Assembly: GCF_900176885.1 (NCBI RefSeq)
Contig: NZ_LT839648.1
Span: 1,689,758 to 1,753,757, forward strand
From: Oceanobacillus senegalensis
Lineage (GTDB): Bacteria > Bacillota > Bacilli > Bacillales > Amphibacillaceae
DNA: 64,000 nt
Direction: 5' to 3'
Shown here: positions 19,753 to 28,047 of the stretch, in pieces
How positions within the stretch are numbered: position 1 is the stretch's first letter
How the letters are laid out: each line of letters starts with the position of its first letter
Notes under the pieces: generated by a model
The model's database searches: none
Seen by the model: only the letters and a program-made list of their open reading frames with translations
Told to the model about the DNA's origin: nothing
Program-made: the position numbers and the translations under genes

Positions 19753-21225
19753 TTAGTTCAATGCCATACAAATATTTTTTACTTCCGTAAAGAACTCCAT
19801 ACTATGTTGACCACCTTCTCTACCAATACCACTCTTCTTAAATCCACCAAATGGGGCACGAAGATCACGGACGAACCAGCAGTTTACCCAGATTGTGCCT
19901 GCTCGAACATTATATGAAATTCGATGTGCTCGTTGAAGATTTTCTGTCCATACTACACCATTTAATCCATATTCTGTATCATTTGCTATTTGAAGCGCCT
20001 CCTCTTCTGTATCAAATGGAATAAGGGTTACCACCGGCCCAAAAATTTCCTCCTGACAAATACGTGATTTTGGATTATTGTGGACATATATGGTTGGTTC
20101 AAGGTAATAACCATTTTTCACATGGTCAGGTAGGACTGGTCGTTTCCCACCACAGACAAGTGTTGCACCTTCTTCCTTTGCAACATCAAGATAACTAGTA
20201 ACTTTATTATAATGTACTTTACTAACTAATGGTCCCATGTCAATGCCCTTTTCTTGCGGATCACCAACCTTTAAATCCATTGCAGCTTTTTTAAACTTTT
20301 CTAAAAAATTATCAAAAATGGAGCGCTGTACCAAAATTCTTGACCCCGCAAGACAAACTTGCCCAGAATTCATAAATGCAGCACGAATAGAACCTGGAAC
20401 TGCTTTTTCAAGATCAGCATCATCAAAAATAATATTTGCTGCCTTTCCACCTAACTCAAAAGAAACCTTTTTCAATGTATCTGCTCCGCTTTTTAAGATA
20501 CTTTTTCCAGTAGTTGTTGAACCTGTAAAGGAGATTAAATCAACCTCTGGATGTGTCGTCAATGTATTACCTACCGTAGCACCCTGTCCTTGCACAACAT
20601 TAACTACTCCATCAGGAATTCCTGCTTCTTTTGCAATTTCACCAAGTAAGGAAACAGATAAAGGTGTACTTTCTGCTGGCTTAATAACAGCCGTATTTCC
20701 TGCTGCAAGGCAAGGTCCAAGCTTCCATGTTGTCAGCATAAATGGGACATTCCATGGTGTAATTAATGCCGCAACACCTACTGGTTCATACCTTGTAAAG
20801 TTAATGTACGCTTCCCTCATTGGGTAGGTTTCTCCACCTTGTTCCTCCACAAAATCCGCAAAGAAACGTATATTATTTGCAGCACGAGCAACTTCATGTG
20901 CAACAGTAGATTCATAGGGTTTACCTACATCCATTGCATCATAGCGTGCAATATCTTCTTTTCTTTCTAAAATAATATCAGCCATTTTTCGAAGTTTTGC
21001 ACTACGTTCTTGCACTGTTATTTTTCTCCACGGCCCAATTTCAAACGCTTCTCTTGCTACTTGGCAGGCACGTTCTACATCCTCAACTGTCGCTTCACTA
21101 ACACGTGCAATTAATTCCTGTGTAGCTGGATTCGTCACATTGAATGTTTCATTATCACTGGAAGGTACGTACTCCCCGTTAATATATAGTCCGATTTCCT
21201 TCACTTCTGTTTTCATACTGGTCAC
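19753..21225 (-). CDS. 2-hydroxymuconic semialdehyde dehydrogenase (HpaE/DmpC-type)
   Basis: NAD-dependent aldehyde dehydrogenase of 490 residues, last gene of the aromatic operon. Catalytic Cys lies in FMNSGQVCLAGSR, general-base Glu in SFELGGKAAN, cofactor loop in SFTGSTTTGKSI and the oxyanion Asn in ITPWNVPFML. The C-terminal VNCWFVRDLRAPFGGFKKSG followed by GREGG and HSMEFFTEVKN is closer to 2-hydroxymuconic semialdehyde dehydrogenases of catechol meta-cleavage (HSLEFYTE-KN type) than to HpaE. It oxidises the ring-cleavage product to 2-hydroxymuconate. The start is read as GTG at 21225 behind GGGAAGG; an ATG three codons later is possible. Confidence 0.85.
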   Translation of the reverse strand: MTSMKTEVKEIGLYINGEYVPSSDNETFNVTNPATQELIARVSEATVEDVERACQVAREAFEIGPWRKITVQERSAKLRKMADIILERKEDIARYDAMDVGKPYESTVAHEVARAANNIRFFADFVEEQGGETYPMREAYINFTRYEPVGVAALITPWNVPFMLTTWKLGPCLAAGNTAVIKPAESTPLSVSLLGEIAKEAGIPDGVVNVVQGQGATVGNTLTTHPEVDLISFTGSTTTGKSILKSGADTLKKVSFELGGKAANIIFDDADLEKAVPGSIRAAFMNSGQVCLAGSRILVQRSIFDNFLEKFKKAAMDLKVGDPQEKGIDMGPLVSKVHYNKVTSYLDVAKEEGATLVCGGKRPVLPDHVKNGYYLEPTIYVHNNPKSRICQEEIFGPVVTLIPFDTEEEALQIANDTEYGLNGVVWTENLQRAHRISYNVRAGTIWVNCWFVRDLRAPFGGFKKSGIGREGGQHSMEFFTEVKNICMALN

Positions 21226-21226
21226 T

Positions 21227-21421
21227 TTAACCTTCCCTCCGCTTTTTTACCGATTCACCGGCAATTCCCCAATGTTCCGGTTTTAATTCGTTAATCATTA
21301 CACGAACACTCTGTTCAGGGGCCTCTAAGACTTCTGAAGCCACACTCGTCATTTCCCGAATAAGACGTTCCTTCTTTTCTGCCGATCTTCCTTCTAAAAT
21401 ATTGACCTGTATAAAAGGCAT
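21227..21421 (-). CDS. 4-oxalocrotonate (2-hydroxymuconate) tautomerase
   Basis: 64 residues, starting MPFIQVNILEGRS so that Pro is N-terminal after Met removal, as required for catalysis. The Arg at position 11 of the mature protein (EGRS) and Arg39 (SVRVMI) match 4-oxalocrotonate tautomerase; the usual Phe50 is Trp (EHWGIAGE). Too short to be the HpaF isomerase of the homoprotocatechuate route, so it supports the catechol pathway. Start at 21421 follows AAAGGAGG; the longer frame to 21472 is not used. The stop lies one base from the dehydrogenase start. Confidence 0.88.
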   Translation of the reverse strand: MPFIQVNILEGRSAEKKERLIREMTSVASEVLEAPEQSVRVMINELKPEHWGIAGESVKKRREG

Positions 21422-21434
21422 TTTTCTACCTCCT

Positions 21435-22224
21435 TTAATCTGTAAATTTAGTATGCACAGAGCCAATACCATCGAAACTAGCAGTAAATTGATCTCCAGA
21501 GGTTATTTTTATTGCCGCAGATAAAGAACCGCTTAAGACAACTTCTCCTGGTTTGATACACTTTCCTACTTTATATAATTTATTTGCTAACCAAGCTACT
21601 GCCTTAGCTGGGTGCCCCATTACAGCTGCTCTTGCACCTGTTGCAATAACTTCATCATTCCTGCTATATACCATTCCCATCAATTCTAAATCTAAATTTT
21701 CTGGACGATAGACTCGTTCTCCAATAATAAACCTGGAAGAAGAAGAATTATCACTTACAGCATCTGGGAGTGTAAACTGAAAACCATAAAAACGACTATC
21801 AATAATCTCGATGGCTGGTGCTACGTATCTAGTCGCATCCAAAACGTCTGCAACTGTCACGTGTGGCCCCTTCAACTCTTTGTTTAAAATAAATGCAATT
21901 TCCGGTTCTGCTTTAGCATGAATAAATGGAGAGATGGAAATTGCTTTTCCTTCGCACAATTTCATGCTTTCTAATAAGACACCATAAGAAGGTTCGTGAA
22001 CTCCCATCATTTCTTGTTTCGCTTTACTTGTTAAACCAAGTTTCCAACCTACTACCCTGGTATTCTCTTCCTTACTTTTTATCTCCATTAAATGGTTTTG
22101 TACTTGATATGCTAATCTCTCATCAAGTTCCGGAAATCTATCGACGAATTTATTAACGGGTTTTTTGTTTCTCGGCTTCAAATAGCTTCTTCGCGATCAA
22201 ATCTATAACTTCCGTTTTAATCAT
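21435..22224 (-). CDS. 4-oxalocrotonate decarboxylase / 2-keto-4-pentenoate hydratase family, frameshifted near N-terminus
   Basis: Fumarylacetoacetate-hydrolase-like hydratase/decarboxylase family: RVVGWKLGLTSKAKQEMMGV, the metal-site Glu in KAEPEIAF, and AIEIIDSRFYGF. The best ribosome site (AGGAGTG) serves an ATG at 22222-22224 that reads MIKTEVIDLIAKKLFEAEKQ, a normal family N-terminus, then hits a stop. Removing one A from the A6 run (T6 at 22161-22166 on plus) joins it to the 248-residue frame continuing PVNKFVDRFPELDERLAYQV. So there is a one-base insertion, a sequencing slip, or slippage. The internal ATG at 22181 would give a protein lacking about 21 residues and has no good ribosome site. 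Type chosen as CDS because the rest is intact. Confidence 0.75.
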
Positions 22225-22297
22225 GCGTTCACTCCTAGCTTCAATAAGGGTATTCCTATATATAGTTGTATCTACTAAAGAAGTCTACTTTTGCAGC

Positions 22298-23281
22298 TTA
22301 CTTGGATTTTGCTACTTCAGGAACGGTTACCGGTGTCCCTTGATTCCACCATGAATCAGGAAATGCAGTTCCAATCCAAGTATCTCCGTTTCCCGGAACA
22401 TCTTTCATCTCCCATGTAACCGTTTCCCAAGTTGGATCTAATATAAGATATCCTGCATCACCAAATAATTCCACACGGTTTCCACCTGGCTCATAAACAT
22501 ACATACAAAAGGCTTGACTAATTCCATGCTTATTTGGTGGCACTTCAATAAATACATCATTATCTTTTAATAAATCAGCGATATCATATAAATTTTGTGG
22601 TATCCCATACCAGTAGCATAAATGATGTAATTTTCCAGGAATCTGATTTGGTTCAGGCATAAATGCAATCTCATGAACAAGATTGGATACACTCATCCAA
22701 CTAGCTATCGTAGTCCCATTATCTACAATTTGTTCTCTTACACGGAATCCCAGTGCATCTGCCATAAATTTCATATTTTTACTCGTATTAGATGCCATAA
22801 GATTAATATGATCTAAACGTCTAACAGGTACACCACGTTCAGGACGTTTTGTGGAACGATTTAAAAGCTTGGTCTGTTCTCCCTCTTTAGACTTATAATA
22901 TTCCACATCAAAAAGCAATTCCATAGGATGACCATCCGGTGTTGTAAATTGATAAGCGGGCCCATGCCCAATATCCCCATCAATCCAACCACGACCTAAC
23001 CCGGTTGCCTTTACAGACTCCACACGTCGCTCTAGTGCTTGTGGAGAGATCGTACGCCAAGCAGCATGACCTAAGCCTGCCTCCTTAGATTCCGTAATTT
23101 TCAAGGTATTATGGTAAGTATCTTCATATGCTTTTAAATAAACAGACTGACCAGATTTTGCTGTTACATTCATTCCTAAAAATCTAGTAAAAAACTCAAC
23201 ACTTTCCTCTGGCTTAGGAGATAATATCTCCAGATGGGCTAATTGTGCTACATCTAAAATAGGTTCTTTAAAAATACTCAT
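22298..23281 (-). CDS. Type I extradiol ring-cleavage dioxygenase (catechol 2,3-dioxygenase, PheB-like)
   Basis: 327 residues, two vicinal-oxygen-chelate modules. The C-terminal module carries the metal ligands: His158 in RRLDHINLM, His219/220 in [11 protein letters not shown] and Glu271 in [13 protein letters not shown]. The ending [12 protein letters not shown] and the length fit the Geobacillus catechol 2,3-dioxygenase PheB, as I recall it, better than HpaD. It would open catechol to 2-hydroxymuconic semialdehyde; homoprotocatechuate remains an alternative substrate. Start is ATG at 23279-23281, nine bases after GGAGG; an upstream TTG lies too close to that site. Confidence 0.85.
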
Positions 23282-23386
23282 ATCCAAAATCCTCCCTATT
23301 TATTAACATCAATAATTTTTATTTTGATATCGTTAGGAGAAGATAACAAGTCGTTCTATACCCTAGCAAATTGCTATCTTAACCCA

Positions 23387-23866
23387 TTACATTACAACGC
23401 TGGAGTTTTCTATTGAAGAATATTTTCCTTTATAGAATAATAGCGGATCCGCGTCCCCTTGGAGGTTGATATCGATTACCTTTCCTATGAACAGAGCATG
23501 ATCTCCTTCTACATGTTCATTGACTACTTCACAGGAAATTTGTGTAGGAGCATCCTTGATTACTGGTAAATCTCCTAACCTATCAAATGAAACGTTCCTA
23601 TCCGCTTCCTTTTGACCAGCAAATATCATAGATAATTCCTTTTGACTCTGAGAGAGTATATTAACAGCATATCGATTGCTTTTTCTAATTTTTTCTAGCA
23701 TACTTGCATTCTCACCGATAGAAATCACTACTAATTTCGGGTCTAATGATACAGACATGAATGCATTTGCAGTCATTCCATGCACATCACCATCCACTTC
23801 TGTTGTAATGACATTTACTCCCGTTGCAAAGTTTCCCATAGCATTTCTAAATTGACGATCGTCCAT
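23387..23866 (-). CDS. hpaC: Flavin reductase component of the two-component hydroxylase
   Basis: 159-residue HpaC/PheA2-like FMN-binding split-barrel reductase that supplies reduced FAD to the monooxygenase. Seen: MDDRQFRNAMGNFATGVNVI, GMTANAFMSVSLDPKLVVIS (flavin contact region), NRYAVNILSQSQKELSMIFA and the late DHALFIGKVI. Located between oxygenase and ring-cleavage genes with ribosome site GAGGAGG. Size matches the B. thermoglucosidasius PheA2 and HpaC groups; sequence alone does not separate them. Confidence 0.85.
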   Translation of the reverse strand: MDDRQFRNAMGNFATGVNVITTEVDGDVHGMTANAFMSVSLDPKLVVISIGENASMLEKIRKSNRYAVNILSQSQKELSMIFAGQKEADRNVSFDRLGDLPVIKDAPTQISCEVVNEHVEGDHALFIGKVIDINLQGDADPLLFYKGKYSSIENSSVVM

Positions 23867-23935
23867 TCAAAAATCCTCCTCATAATTTCTAATAGATTAG
23901 CCATTTATGATAACCTCATAACTCAAATATCTTCT

Positions 23936-25450
23936 TTATTGTTTTACTAAATTGTCGATTTCAGAAGAGTTTATCCACGTATCATTTGTCCATCCGTACA
24001 AATCATAGTCACTCAAAGCTGAACCCGCAAATGCTCTGTACCTATCTGCAGCTCCTGAACCTTCCGCATGTTTTAATGCCTCTAATCGAATATTTTCCGT
24101 ATTTCCAGCATAATTAATTTCATATAGCTCATGACGACCGCCAAATTCAGACCCAATGGCATCCCAAATCATCTTCAATAATTTGATACGCTGCTCTGAA
24201 CTAGTATTTGTTCCACGATAGAATTTATCAATATATGGTCTCAAGTCTGAATTTAACAGGTCCTTTGAACTTGAAGGTAACTGAATCAACCCGCCTGCAA
24301 CCACTTGTTCAAAGATATTTTTTACCCTAACCCACGTGTTTGGAGCTAAAACCCGATATGCATTGGCATAATAACCATTGGGAACAGCTACACCATTCAT
24401 TCCCACGTCCGGTTCACTAGCCATTGCTGTTGTCAACCCCCATACCATATTACGAAGAGCTAATACTTCACCAATATTTACTTGTACGCCCCTAAATTGC
24501 TGTGTACCTGCAGCTTCTGTCGCTTTAAGCAATAACCCCGCCATAAAGTCAAGCTTAACAGCCAATCTTGTAGCTCCATGAAAAGAAAATCGATTAACAA
24601 ACTTAGTTTCTGTGAAAAATTTGTTTGAAACATCAACGTTCTTATATGCAAGAACATCTTCCCAAGGGATAAATACATTATCTAGTACGATAACTGCATC
24701 ATTCTCATCGAAACGGCTAGATAATGGATAGTCAAAAGGAGAGCCATTTGTTGCCGCTTGCAATTCATAAGATTGTCGACTAATCATCTTCACACCTGAT
24801 GCATTCATTGGCACAAAAAAAACAAGCGCGTGGCTTTGGTCACCGTCTCCGAGATCTTTTGGTCCATAATTTGCTACAAAATTGTAATGTGTTAATGGTG
24901 CAGCTGTTCCTACCATCTTGGCACCGCTTACAACAATACCATTATCCTTTTCATCTACAGCACGAACAAAGACATCCTTGTTTTCATGTAGTGGCTTTGA
25001 ACGATCTACCTGTGGATTAATAACAGTATGGTTAATAAAGGACACATCACGCGATGCTTTCCTATACCAAGATCTAGCATTATCCTCAAATCCTTTATAA
25101 AAATCAGCATAACTGTTTAAATGCCCCATAAAAGAAGCTTTATAATCAGGAGTACGTCCCATATACCCAAAGTTTAATTTAGACCACTCTGCTATGGCAT
25201 CTCTAGCTTCGATAAGGTCTTTTGAACACGTAGGTGTTTTAAAGAATTTATGAGTTTTATCTCCGTATTCATTTTCGGTGACTATCTTTTTGCTTTTTTC
25301 CGGATCGTGTAGACTATCATACATTCTTGCATAAGAACGAGCCGCATTACGAAACGCTGGATGTAATGTTACGTCATCTACTTTCTCACCATTTAGATAA
25401 ACTTCTCGACCATCTCTTAAACTTTCTAAATACTCTTTACCCGTTAACAT
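23936..25450 (-). CDS. hpaB: HpaB/PheA1-family flavin monooxygenase, oxygenase component
   Basis: 504-residue FADH2-using aromatic ortho-hydroxylase, first gene of the operon. Acyl-CoA-dehydrogenase-like fold with N-terminal MLTGKEYLESLRDGREVYLN, NHTVINPQVDRSKP (about residue 140-155), GAKMVGTAAPLTHYNFVA and the C-terminal LLKMIWDAIGSEFGGRHELYEI. The family hydroxylates 4-hydroxyphenylacetate (HpaB) or phenol (PheA1). Neighbours of the 2-hydroxymuconate type and the phenol-sensor-like regulator favour phenol as substrate, giving catechol; this is inference. Strong ribosome site GGAGGGTG. The promoter region holds a cre-like site. Confidence 0.88.
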   Translation of the reverse strand: MLTGKEYLESLRDGREVYLNGEKVDDVTLHPAFRNAARSYARMYDSLHDPEKSKKIVTENEYGDKTHKFFKTPTCSKDLIEARDAIAEWSKLNFGYMGRTPDYKASFMGHLNSYADFYKGFEDNARSWYRKASRDVSFINHTVINPQVDRSKPLHENKDVFVRAVDEKDNGIVVSGAKMVGTAAPLTHYNFVANYGPKDLGDGDQSHALVFFVPMNASGVKMISRQSYELQAATNGSPFDYPLSSRFDENDAVIVLDNVFIPWEDVLAYKNVDVSNKFFTETKFVNRFSFHGATRLAVKLDFMAGLLLKATEAAGTQQFRGVQVNIGEVLALRNMVWGLTTAMASEPDVGMNGVAVPNGYYANAYRVLAPNTWVRVKNIFEQVVAGGLIQLPSSSKDLLNSDLRPYIDKFYRGTNTSSEQRIKLLKMIWDAIGSEFGGRHELYEINYAGNTENIRLEALKHAEGSGAADRYRAFAGSALSDYDLYGWTNDTWINSSEIDNLVKQ

Positions 25451-25506
25451 ATTGTTTCACCCTCCATTACTTTTAATATTTCTATATTTCTTAATCTTAT
25501 TTTATT

Positions 25507-25520
25507 TTAAAACGCTTTCA
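25507..25520 (-). promoter_or_regulatory. cre site (CcpA) in the promoter region of the aromatic operon
   Basis: Minus strand TGAAAGCGTTTTAA matches the cre consensus TGNAANCGNNNNCA at all fixed positions but one. It lies about 57-70 bases upstream of the monooxygenase start, where CcpA bound with HPr-Ser-P would repress. Predicts glucose repression of aromatic degradation. Confidence 0.55.
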
Positions 25521-25523
25521 TAA

Positions 25524-25537
25524 ACAACGACAGTTGT
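25524..25537. promoter_or_regulatory. Candidate operator of the aromatic regulator
   Basis: Inverted repeat ACAAC-N4-GTTGT four bases from the cre site, in the 175-base gap between the monooxygenase and its regulator. A possible site for the PucR-type activator; not shown. Confidence 0.3.
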
Positions 25538-25583
25538 AGTCTGAATATAGTGAATTATTAAGCATTATATGTTAGTTGTATTC

Positions 25584-25617
25584 GATAAAAAAATGTCTTC
25601 ACTAATGAAGACATTTT
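25584..25617 (-). terminator. Terminator of the aromatic regulator gene
   Basis: Perfect stem AAATGTCTTC / GAAGACATTT with six-base loop, followed on the minus strand by a T run. It separates the regulator transcript from the monooxygenase operon. Confidence 0.85.
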
Positions 25618-25625
25618 CTATCACT

Positions 25626-27500
25626 TTAAAATTCCAATTTTCCTATTGAAATTAACGCTTGAATGGACAACAATAGGTTATACGTTACCTCAGGATTTCT
25701 TAAATCTTTCCCAAGTAAATCTTCTATTTTCGCTATACGATATCGAAGTCCACTCAATGACAAAGCCAAGCTTTCTGCTGTATTCTCTAAATTCCCACCA
25801 TTCCGTAGATATTCGTACAAAGTCCTAATCAATTCCATATTTTTGTGATCTAAATTACTAGATAATGGATGAAGGGTATACATTGCAATTTTTTCTATTT
25901 CTATTTTGTTATTGGTATTTACTAAGGGGCCCAAAATACCTAGCGAATAAAACGGAACAACTTTATTTGTATTCGTGGCTATCCTCATCGCAGTAAGGGC
26001 TTCTGAATAACTCTCGGAAGCCTTTTCAATTTGATCTGACTCCATGCTAAGGCCTGCCTGAAACGAAACAGTTGGATACAATTCAGATAGATGGTTCATG
26101 TAATGTTCGCAGGTTGAAAGAATTCCATCTTTCTTGTTTATTTCGCCATCTAGAAACAAAAAAGCAAGTTTATTTGATAGCTGTCCCATCAGAATGTTCA
26201 TTCCCTTTTTCTTAAAATAAGTAGATGACTGATTCATGACCTCTTCTAAAAATGACATTTCTTCCCGATAATCCTTTTGATATGTTTTATATTGAATAAC
26301 AACGATATGAAAAGGCTGAAAAAGGTTCAATCCGATAAAACCGCTACGTCTTATAATTTCTTCCTTTGAATATTCCTCACTTAATAATTGCTCTAAGAAT
26401 CTCCCCTTCATCCTTTCCTCCGCTTCTGCTTCTGTTTTCTTATTTAATAAATACAGAGCACAAACAGATGATATTCGCTCTATAATTGCTCGGAGGTTAT
26501 ACGTATCTTCTTTCTTCGAATTTTCATAAATAAATGAGCAATAACCAATAATTCTTCCTTGAAGATAAATTGGGGTAACTAATCGTGTATGATGATCTAT
26601 TTGAAGTGTTTGGGTATGATGGAAAGATGACTCTACCGATTGAACATAATCTTTAAATAATTGATTTACTTTAAATAACATTTCATCTGGAATACCAGAT
26701 GATGCCAATTGATGGAACTCTTGATCTTCTACTATAATAGCTGTCCCTGTATAATCATGGACAATATCCATCATAGCACTTAAATCCTTCCCCTTTAAAA
26801 TTTCTTCTGTCAATTTATTATATATAATTGATACATTCTTTAAATTATTTCTTTCTTCCAATAATTTCTCGTATGTTAATTCCAGTTCTTTTATCACTGG
26901 TTGTTCTTTGTAGTACTGAAGTTCATCACTCATTTCATCTGTCCAATAATCAATGGTTCTTCCAACCCATCTACATTCCTTATCACCTTTACCAACACAA
27001 GATATTTCGTTAAATAGGACCGTTTGATTGCAAATTTCACTAAGGTATCCGTTTCCATACCCAACAGACATATAACAAACAGGTTCCTCTGCCTTACCAA
27101 AATGGTGAATATGTTCTTCCGCTTCAAAGGAACTTTTCCATATCCCCTCTATATAAGTAGATATTTTATTTTCCTCTTCTATCACTTCAATTTTATTAAG
27201 CGTGGCGATAACATGTCCTTGTATTTGGTGAAAGATAGGTCCTTTTTTTATAATAGATTCAACCGATTCATTTTTAAATTTTTCTAACACCATTTTTGCA
27301 TCTCTACGACCTAGATCTGTGCCATAACGCATTAGAAAGCCCTTAACTCTTTCTTTACCGATATTTCGATACAGATCCTTTCTTAATATACCAAAGGATG
27401 ATGTGGGGGTTAACACTGATCTACTATTCCCTGAGTAAATCAATCCATCTTCCGTAAATCCTATGTTATCTAGAGGGCTAAGGCTTTTATTCACATGCAA
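25626..27500 (-). CDS. XylR_N-V4R-PucR aromatic-responsive transcriptional regulator
   Basis: 624 residues. XylR_N sensor about 20-125 (GFLMRYGTDLGRRDA is its typical run), V4R about 130-190, a GAF-like middle about 215-370, and a PucR C-terminal helix-turn-helix about 565-620 (NLENTAESLALSLSGLRYRI). Cys142, Glu165, Cys168 and Cys176 have the same spacing (23, 3, 8) as the zinc ligands I recall for the phenol sensor MopR (C155, E178, C181, C189), and Trp121 sits 21 before Cys142 as MopR Trp134 does. The NtrC-type AAA+ domain of MopR/DmpR is absent. Likely activates the adjacent operon in response to a phenol. The start is TTG at 27500 behind GGGAG; GTG at 27494 is possible. Confidence 0.82.
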   Translation of the reverse strand: MHVNKSLSPLDNIGFTEDGLIYSGNSRSVLTPTSSFGILRKDLYRNIGKERVKGFLMRYGTDLGRRDAKMVLEKFKNESVESIIKKGPIFHQIQGHVIATLNKIEVIEEENKISTYIEGIWKSSFEAEEHIHHFGKAEEPVCYMSVGYGNGYLSEICNQTVLFNEISCVGKGDKECRWVGRTIDYWTDEMSDELQYYKEQPVIKELELTYEKLLEERNNLKNVSIIYNKLTEEILKGKDLSAMMDIVHDYTGTAIIVEDQEFHQLASSGIPDEMLFKVNQLFKDYVQSVESSFHHTQTLQIDHHTRLVTPIYLQGRIIGYCSFIYENSKKEDTYNLRAIIERISSVCALYLLNKKTEAEAEERMKGRFLEQLLSEEYSKEEIIRRSGFIGLNLFQPFHIVVIQYKTYQKDYREEMSFLEEVMNQSSTYFKKKGMNILMGQLSNKLAFLFLDGEINKKDGILSTCEHYMNHLSELYPTVSFQAGLSMESDQIEKASESYSEALTAMRIATNTNKVVPFYSLGILGPLVNTNNKIEIEKIAMYTLHPLSSNLDHKNMELIRTLYEYLRNGGNLENTAESLALSLSGLRYRIAKIEDLLGKDLRNPEVTYNLLLSIQALISIGKLEF

Positions 27501-27798
27501 ATATAATCCACTCCCTTGCTATCATTACCTCTTTATTTTTTATTAATGAATATCAATGCGATATACTGTTACATTATAATGAATATTCTGTATTATATCA
27601 AAACTCCAAATTACCCATTTTCTATTAACACATGTAGGAATATAGAAATATTTTTCTTATATTTTATCTTCACATATTTCGTCCTGAAAGTTGAAAAATT
27701 CCACGTTCCCCCCCAGTAATTTGACCGTTTCTGTATTTGAAAAATATTCATAAAATGTATAAAACGAATCATAATCTCCATGAGAAAGGAGGAATACT

Positions 27799-28047
27799 GT
27801 GCCTTGCTTACCAGGTTATCGTTACTGTGGTCCCGGATGTAGTGGTCCGGGTGCACCAACCAATCAATTGGATTTCTATTGTATGCAGCATGACGCTTGT
27901 TATCGGAAAAACAAACTAAATAAACATAAACATTGTGATCAACTTTTTTTAAAACAACTTGAACCTTTTACCCGTCATCCAGGAAAAATAGGTAAAGATG
28001 CCAGGTTCATGTATCGAATAATGAAATTAAAACAGGGACTAATATAA
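27799..28047 (+). CDS. Small phospholipase A2-like protein
   Basis: 82 residues, GTG start after a strong GAAAGGAGG. It carries the PLA2 calcium loop (YRYCGPGCSGPG, residues 8-19), the catalytic pair His31-Asp32 in FYCMQHDACY and a second helix with Cys46-Asp47 (HKHCDQLF), where PLA2 keeps its catalytic Asp. This resembles the short PLA2 domain of parvovirus VP1 and related bacterial miniproteins. No signal peptide is visible. Cys residues at 28, 35 and 46 could pair. A terminator follows. Whether it is an active lipase, and in which compartment, is unknown. Confidence 0.7.
   Translation: MPCLPGYRYCGPGCSGPGAPTNQLDFYCMQHDACYRKNKLNKHKHCDQLFLKQLEPFTRHPGKIGKDARFMYRIMKLKQGLI

Follow-up and report, generated by a model that had tools for sequence, protein, structure and literature searches.

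A putative phenol-responsive regulator of Oceanobacillus senegalensis combines a MopR/DmpR-type sensor module with a PucR-type output domain

The window analysed in this work, a 64,000-nucleotide stretch of an Oceanobacillus senegalensis contig, contains a regulator gene with genes for a likely phenol hydroxylase and meta-cleavage enzymes downstream on the same strand (Table 1), an adjacency typical of PheR-type regulators. The encoded protein is likely a PheR-type, one-component activator that would respond to phenol at a sigma-A-type promoter for phenol degradation. Four domains were detected by Pfam above the curated cut-offs, namely XylR_N (residues 17-105, E 6e-17), V4R (125-179, E 1e-8), GGDEF_2 (378-507, E 3e-9) and HTH_30/PucR (557-614, E 2e-14), which together form the set carried by PheR-type regulators (about 600-660 aa); a C-terminal HTH_30 behind a GGDEF-like domain is also the layout of the PucR family. 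The AAA+ activation domain (sigma-54 ATPase) that defines enhancer-binding proteins of the DmpR class was absent from the Pfam matches of the protein, which has a PucR output instead, and the best Pfam match to residues 224-377 was no better than E 0.06. The initial annotation had placed the gene correctly and had read its product as XylR_N and V4R followed by a GAF-like middle and a PucR helix-turn-helix with no NtrC ATPase, an architecture borne out by Pfam and, for the middle domain, by the predicted fold (CodY, Z 14). Residues 10-216 also scored 139 bits against the NCBIfam model MobR, labelled as a named phenol-degradation regulator, for which the model cut-off is 999.

Table 1 Features of the regulator gene, the intergenic region and the operon (window coordinates).
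Feature	Position	Strand	Basis
PheR-type regulator ORF	25626..27500	-	624 aa, TTG start
Phenol-sensor module (XylR_N + V4R), residues 1-200	26901..27500	-	Pfam, phmmer, fold comparison
His91, aligned with phenol-anchoring MopR His106	27228..27230	-	invariant in 79/79 rows
Gly119, in place of MopR Phe132, paired with Trp178	27144-27146	-	alignment
Trp121, aligned with phenol-anchoring MopR Trp134	27138..27140	-	invariant in 79/79 rows
Stretch with zinc ligands	26973..27077	-	alignment
Zinc ligand Cys142	27075-27077	-	alignment
Zinc ligand Glu165	27006-27008	-	alignment
Zinc ligand Cys168	26997-26999	-	alignment
Zinc ligand Cys176	26973-26975	-	alignment
Trp178, in place of MopR Ile191	26967..26969	-	alignment
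Long helix after sensor, residues 202-235	26796..26897	-	predicted secondary structure
GAF-like middle domain, about residues 218-362	26415..26849	-	fold match to CodY 5lnh
GGDEF-like domain (GGDEF_2), residues 378-507	25980..26369	-	Pfam
PucR helix-turn-helix (HTH_30), residues 557-614	25659..25832	-	Pfam; 3onq, 9f80 by fold
Regulator promoter-like site, TTGATA-17-TATAAT	27573..27601	-	consensus scan, 11/12 matches
Hairpin with T-run directly after regulator gene, likely terminator between this gene and the operon	25584..25624	-	-17.1 kcal/mol, z -6.3
Candidate box 1, AACA-N5-TGCT	25561..25573	-	12-locus alignment
Candidate box 2, GACT-N5-TGTC, immediately before the -35, 32 bp from box 1	25529..25541	-	12-locus alignment
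Operon promoter, sigma-A type, 17-bp spacer	25499..25527	-	12-locus alignment
Operon -35, TTGTTT	25522-25527	-	
Operon -10, TAAAAT	25499-25504	-	
Possible CcpA (cre) site in promoter spacer, ATGAAAGCGTTTTAA	25507..25521	-	1 mismatch to consensus
HpaB-type flavin monooxygenase, likely phenol hydroxylase	23936..25450	-	Pfam, NCBIfam
Flavin reductase partner	23387..23866	-	Pfam, NCBIfam
Catechol 2,3-dioxygenase	22298..23287	-	TIGR03211, above equivalog cut-off
2-oxo-3-hexenedioate decarboxylase/hydratase family	21435..22181	-	Pfam, NCBIfam
4-oxalocrotonate tautomerase	21227..21472	-	Pfam, NCBIfam
2-hydroxymuconic-semialdehyde-type dehydrogenase	19753..21225	-	below equivalog cut-offs

The structure of the regulator was predicted from 79 aligned sequences with a mean pLDDT of 89.1 and a full-length pTM of 0.58, the latter making the relative placing of its domains uncertain. 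Foldseek ranked PoxR, MopR and DmpR at the top (best E 2e-15; TM 0.87-0.90 against PoxR, normalised by target), then two structures from the PucR family; CodY was among the other hits. Comparison of the model with the phenol-sensor crystal structures of PoxR, MopR and DmpR gave Z values of 25-28, including Z 28.3 for PoxR 5frx (rmsd 1.9, 193 residues aligned) and Z 26.2 for MopR 7vqf (rmsd 1.9, 189 aligned; both VIA-align), so that the fold is that of the MopR/DmpR sensor module. With the same program, residues 218-362 matched CodY 5lnh (Z 14.4, rmsd 3.3, 141 aligned) and residues 360-617 the PucR-type structure 9f80 (Z 14.1), the high rmsd of 9.7 in the latter model comparison probably reflecting domain placement. 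The superposition on MopR proposed in the initial annotation thus recovered the sensor fold, and the outcome set beforehand as speaking against it, absence of the zinc site or the phenol pocket, did not occur, the fold being given by the model and the ligands by alignment. The helix joining the sensor to the GAF-like domain is comparable to the coiled-coil B-linker that follows the DmpR sensor in the available text of PMC7264223.

Among PDB sequences searched with phmmer, the sensor matched MopR (E 2e-34), PoxR (2e-33) and DmpR/CapR (1e-29). According to the excerpted text of PMC10715001, His106 and Trp134 of MopR anchor the phenol hydroxyl, the ring is contacted by Phe99, Pro103, Val112, Val114, Phe132, Tyr161, Ala162, Tyr165, Tyr176 and Ile191, and Ser166 closes the pocket. 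The Cys-Glu-Cys-Cys ligands and the His-Trp anchor of the MopR/DmpR module could all be located by alignment. Cys142, Glu165, Cys168 and Cys176, previously put forward as the zinc site from their spacing (23, 3, 8), align with the MopR ligands, and Trp121, previously put forward as the phenol-contacting Trp, aligns with MopR Trp134. The other contact had been assigned to His96, a candidate now ruled out, since MopR His106 aligns directly with the invariant His91 and position 96 varies across the 79 rows (His in 29, Tyr in 19, Val in 10, Arg in 9, others in 12). This full-length alignment comprised the window regulator and 78 loci, leaving out L006 (which duplicates the window gene), L018, L025, L077, L092, L094 and six PucR-only loci, and contained 12 invariant sensor positions, namely His91, Trp121, the four zinc ligands, glycines 60, 64, 147, 151 and 172, and Glu126. 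With L018, L025, L077 and L092 added (83 rows), the His and the zinc ligands were kept in 83/83 and the Trp in 82/83, the exception being an alignment gap.

Across 151 distinct sensors the zinc ligands were kept without exception. In PucR-type sensors, His and Trp were each kept in 124 of 125, with one alignment gap each, and in the 26 sensors that are not PucR-type the His was replaced in 4 and the Trp in 5. The DmpR ligands are printed as Cys151, Glu172, Cys177 and Cys185 in the excerpted text of PMC7264223; the Cys spacings of 26 and 8 agree with those of the regulator, whereas the printed Glu number gives a spacing of 5 instead of 3, the DmpR chain itself having a Glu at the aligned place. 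The same excerpt gives Tyr for the anchor His in the toluene/xylene sensor XylR, and the conserved His therefore suggests that the ligand is phenolic. Two distant XylR_N/V4R proteins from a Proteobacterial class sample (L170 and L171) keep the zinc ligands, have GGDEF-like ends by the look of their sequences and seem to carry Phe in place of the His and His in place of the Trp, and for this reason they probably do not sense phenols.

The pocket wall differs from that of MopR. By alignment, Pro88, Val97, Tyr148 and Tyr152 are unchanged, and seven of the listed positions differ, with Ile84, Ala99, Gly119 and Gly149 at MopR 99, 114, 132 and 162 and Leu153, Phe163 and Trp178 at MopR 166, 176 and 191; the favoured ligand may therefore be a substituted phenol or catechol. 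A survey of the same 151 sensors (125 PucR-type, 16 of sigma-54 type as assigned by motif and not by profile, and 10 other or cut; L025 and the repeats L160, L162 and L164 left out) identified Gly132 together with Trp, Tyr or Phe 191 (MopR numbering) in 108 of the 125 PucR-type sensors, and neither Gly132 nor an aromatic 191 in any of the 16 sigma-54 sensors, counts that are not independent events because the sequences are related. The other 17 PucR-type sensors, one gap aside, have Ser, Val or Ala at 132 and Ala, Val, Cys, Ile, Thr or Ser at 191, and the 16 sigma-54 sensors have Phe, Ile, Leu, Tyr or Met at 132 and Ile, Ala, Leu or Val at 191. Two of the 10 remaining sensors have Tyr and Phe at this pair, both seemingly without the His and Trp, and another (L169), with GAFTGA, missed the sigma-54 motif, was counted as other and has Arg and Phe at the His/Trp positions. 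A single wall aromatic seems, from these residues, to have shifted from one pocket position to the other. A paralog regulator of the source genome (L004:7224-9098) has Val at both, a possible sign of a wider pocket for a bulkier phenol. Three Shewanella sigma-54 XylR_N proteins (L143, L144 and L145) keep the His and Trp and have Pro, Ile and Ala at MopR 99, 132 and 191.

The rebuilt wall leaves room for the reading that the chief ligand is a related compound, such as catechol, 4-hydroxyphenylacetate or a cresol, which we regard as somewhat unlikely and which overlaps with a phenol-responsive activator in all but the ligand. The frequency of the 132/191 exchange in PucR-type sensors, the HpaB family membership of the operon hydroxylase and the crystallisation of MopR also with catechol, o-cresol and 3-chlorophenol (structure titles) are in its favour. 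However, the exchange keeps one aromatic in the wall, so that pocket size may change little, and the operon dioxygenase scores above the cut-off of the catechol 2,3-dioxygenase model but below that of the 3,4-dihydroxyphenylacetate dioxygenase model, which makes a pathway via catechol likely.

An aromatic-ring or meta-cleavage gene match was found within 6 kb of the regulator in 43 of 44 loci (43 named and the window), L108 having no match and L107 a tautomerase only. A dioxygenase was present in 31, an HpaB-type enzyme in 28 and a flavin reductase in 21 of these loci, some matches being only 26-35% identical. None of seven PucR-only control loci, at one of which (L158) not even the regulator matched at the limit used, gave a match to the dioxygenase, the monooxygenases, the flavin reductase or the tautomerase, and four matched the aldehyde dehydrogenase. 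The aldolase and acetaldehyde dehydrogenase encoded close to the regulator in many relatives had no match in the operon (19753-25450); an aldolase, 55% identical, was located at G000:C4:690752. Between the regulator and a glutamine-synthetase-like gene, an ORF of 82 aa (27799-28047, plus strand) matched PF08398, Phospholipase A2-like, above the cut-off (4e-10).

The promoter-like site of the regulator gene was the best of 18 found, 12.3 being expected by chance, and the hairpin after the gene was not listed by a simple terminator scan; the regulator's own sigma-A-like site and this terminator-like hairpin make it likely that the operon has its own promoter. Alignment of 12 loci revealed a conserved intergenic block consisting of an ACTRACA-N5-TGYY box and a RRCA-N5-TGYY-like box running into TTGTT, with a spacing of 32 bp in the aligned loci and 31 in L100, and then a 17-bp spacer and a TANAAT-like -10, which in 10 of the 12 loci precedes the ATG by 33-55 nt. 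TTGTTT-17-TANAAT is found in eight loci and TTGTTG-17-TAGACT in two, L106 (in which the block is shifted) and L111 (a poor fit) deviating. Among 22 boxes in 11 loci, nine were perfect 4+4 palindromes, 12 had one mismatch and one had three, box 1 having been located by a pattern that preselected part of the left arm; both arms changed together in four of the nine perfect palindromes. Judged by their position and conservation, the two candidate boxes may be bound by the regulator. The spacer site, which may be a cre (CcpA) site, is conserved in the 12 loci, and one-mismatch matches of this kind are common (23 in the window, 12.6 expected). No sigma-54 promoter was found before the operon: with up to three mismatches allowed, none of the 200 matches listed, which extend over this region, fell in 25451-25625, although weak sigma-54-type matches are common (272 in the window against 213 expected). 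The output, described early on as sigma-A-compatible, pairs a PucR-type domain with an operon promoter that looks sigma-A type.

At up to three mismatches, the double box occurred once in the 4.3 Mb genome, at the site used to derive the pattern, and the reversed-pattern control gave none. A strict search of 33 loci, mostly outside the pattern set (L111 is in the 12-locus alignment but not in the consensus), returned one pair each at 23, 32 (L128) and 33 bp (L127) and none in reversed sequences. With a looser pattern, written after the strict search, 21 of 35 further loci reached the preset limit of 24, against 8 reversed controls, and 9 of 35 scored 27 or more, a limit chosen after the scores were seen, against no control (best 25). 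These 35 loci come from more distant regulators, and many of the stretches may stop short of the operon promoter. In the nine higher-scoring loci the boxes were always 32 or 33 bp apart, some 120 to 700 bp before catabolic gene matches. The double box was not found beside the paralogs L004 and L005 (best 23 of 33, below controls), and L004-type flanks align without it.

The same sensor and boxes could also serve a repressor that leaves the promoter upon phenol binding, an arrangement we consider improbable. A protein bound to box 2, which abuts the -35 hexamer, could obstruct the polymerase. EtpR, a sigma-54 relative sharing this type of sensor, is labelled a repressor in the excerpted text of PMC10715001, although the title of its own 2015 paper describes it as essential for expression. 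The operon promoter is weak by consensus, though, with its TTGTTT falling short of the 9-of-12 limit of the scan, which suits a need for activation; the boxes near -43 and -75, for an inferred start site, are at activator-like positions; and PoxR and DmpR are described as activators (structure titles; available text of PMC7264223). That the confidently predicted GAF-like domain between sensor and output is the true sensor, the phenol module merely holding the dimer together, is very improbable, given that His91 and Trp121 are invariant across the 79 rows and that residues 218-362 contain no invariant residue.

The arrangement was not peculiar to one genome. XylR_N was detected in 67 rows from 43 of the 397 genomes sampled in the order, and 57 of the 60 proteins fetched (the other seven rows being three own, two of G038, and G473 and G492, which were left out) had both the sensor and a PucR output; the domain order whose search across Bacillales had been suggested is therefore the rule among the fetched XylR_N proteins. 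The remaining three were two short frames without output (L077 and L092) and a below-cut-off match without detectable sensor (L094). All four Pfam domains were found at E <= 0.001 in 80 of 80 proteins scanned (the window regulator, 78 loci and a plasmid counterpart of PheR). In the family, 17 of 147 genomes matched the full-length regulator profile, PucR-only proteins included, at 32 listed places, of which G146:C17 and G030:C66 were given no locus. Across the phylum sample, 7 of 398 genomes had a match, two in the order and five outside it, and the seven rows fetched of the nine outside comprised five PucR-type proteins and two (L146 and L151) cut by contig ends. A scan of named genomes yielded 47 loci, with a PucR output in 41 of 43 from Bacillota (L140 split, L141 cut) and the sigma-54 GAFTGA motif in all four from Proteobacteria; XylR_N was present in 8 of 185 genomes of the class around one of the latter. 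In Anoxybacillus vitaminiphilus (L140:5956-7835) a break close to the middle divides the regulator into two frames.

In a tree of 94 rows, built with about every second PucR row and all other rows, the 68 PucR rows fell within one 78-row branch (support 100/99). The branch also holds seven cut or unclassified rows and, on a long branch inside it, the three Shewanella sigma-54 sensors, and a clean single origin of the PucR-type sensors is thus unsupported. The source genome has two further regulator paralogs, the XylR_N match of the third being above the cut-off in one scan and just below in another. Each adjoins an HsaA-like protein (acyl-CoA-dehydrogenase fold; the one beside L004 likely a flavin monooxygenase), a dioxygenase-superfamily protein and an alpha/beta hydrolase. 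The genome also encodes sigma-54 and gives eight strong PF00158 matches, so that the PucR output was not forced by lack of sigma-54.

Phenol binding by the sensor and activation of the operon, as deduced from sequence and model, would proceed as follows. Phenol or a small alkylphenol would enter the pocket, where His91 and Trp121 would hold its hydroxyl, and the change would pass down the helix as proposed for DmpR, with an outcome other than the ATP-driven opening of a sigma-54 polymerase. A dimer or tetramer would use its PucR ends to bind the two imperfect palindromes, whose 32 bp correspond to about three helical turns and whose centres would be near -75 and -43, given a start site 7 nt downstream of the -10. 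From the promoter-proximal box, against the weak -35 TTGTTT, the protein would help the sigma-A polymerase to start the hydroxylase and meta-cleavage operon, and CcpA at the cre-like spacer site could shut the operon when a better carbon source is present.

Whether Bacillota moved a MopR-type sensor, perhaps once, from sigma-54 control to a sigma-A-type promoter under PucR-type control, with the 132/191 aromatic exchange, a dedicated double-palindrome promoter and added CcpA control, is in our estimate evenly balanced. If so, the same sensor would drive two unrelated transcription starts, one ATP-driven and the other by recruitment, a natural comparison of one small-molecule sensor with two unrelated outputs. 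DmpR and MopR are well studied but act via sigma-54 and ATP-driven activation, and a sensor with the same anchor that acts through an ordinary promoter would offer Gram-positive hosts a simpler part. The contributions of this work are the correct anchor His91, the order-wide rule, the pocket exchange and the operator and promoter model; they name residues and a likely operator for mutation, so that how Gram-positive bacteria regulate phenol degradation, a question deferred in 2008, becomes directly testable.

The closest known system is PheR of Geobacillus stearothermophilus DSM 6285, a 642-aa protein of a phenol operon. The available text of Omokoko 2008 (PMC2590616) presents it as the first phenol-metabolism regulator known from Gram-positive bacteria, notes that its subdomains differ from those of DmpR and XylR, and leaves its mode for later work. 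The main text of that paper uses neither V4R nor PucR as a term, and its excerpts describe no functional test. A Parageobacillus thermoglucosidasius plasmid, from another strain, has the gene order of the PheR operon and a 642-aa regulator with the same four domains (36% identical to the window protein across 96% of the latter), likely the counterpart of PheR. The regulator studied here therefore belongs to a kind first sighted in 2008, and the architecture is not claimed as novel. Among the matches listed in the open-licence literature, a PucR-type phenol sensor appeared only in the excerpts of PMC2590616 and PMC8696081, the latter using 'pucR' as a label for genes in two Parageobacillus phenol loci; the excerpt of PMC8784404 held nothing on one, and no paper was found for the domain combination, an absence that is weak evidence in that literature. 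Both PheR and the present regulator accompany a phenol operon, and the plasmid counterpart shares the four domains and the length of PheR; however, the PheR gene lies inside its operon and is co-transcribed with it (PMC2590616, available text), whereas the gene described here precedes the operon, has a promoter-like site of its own and is followed by a terminator-like hairpin. With the PucR/CdaR family (3onq, 9f80) the regulator shares the GGDEF-like domain and the C-terminal helix-turn-helix, those structures matching only residues 360-617 of the model and not the sensor. With MopR, PoxR and DmpR (CapR) it shares the sensor fold, the zinc ligands and the His-Trp anchor, but pocket positions 132 and 191 are exchanged, and GAF-like, GGDEF-like and PucR domains stand where those proteins have an AAA+ sigma-54 ATPase.
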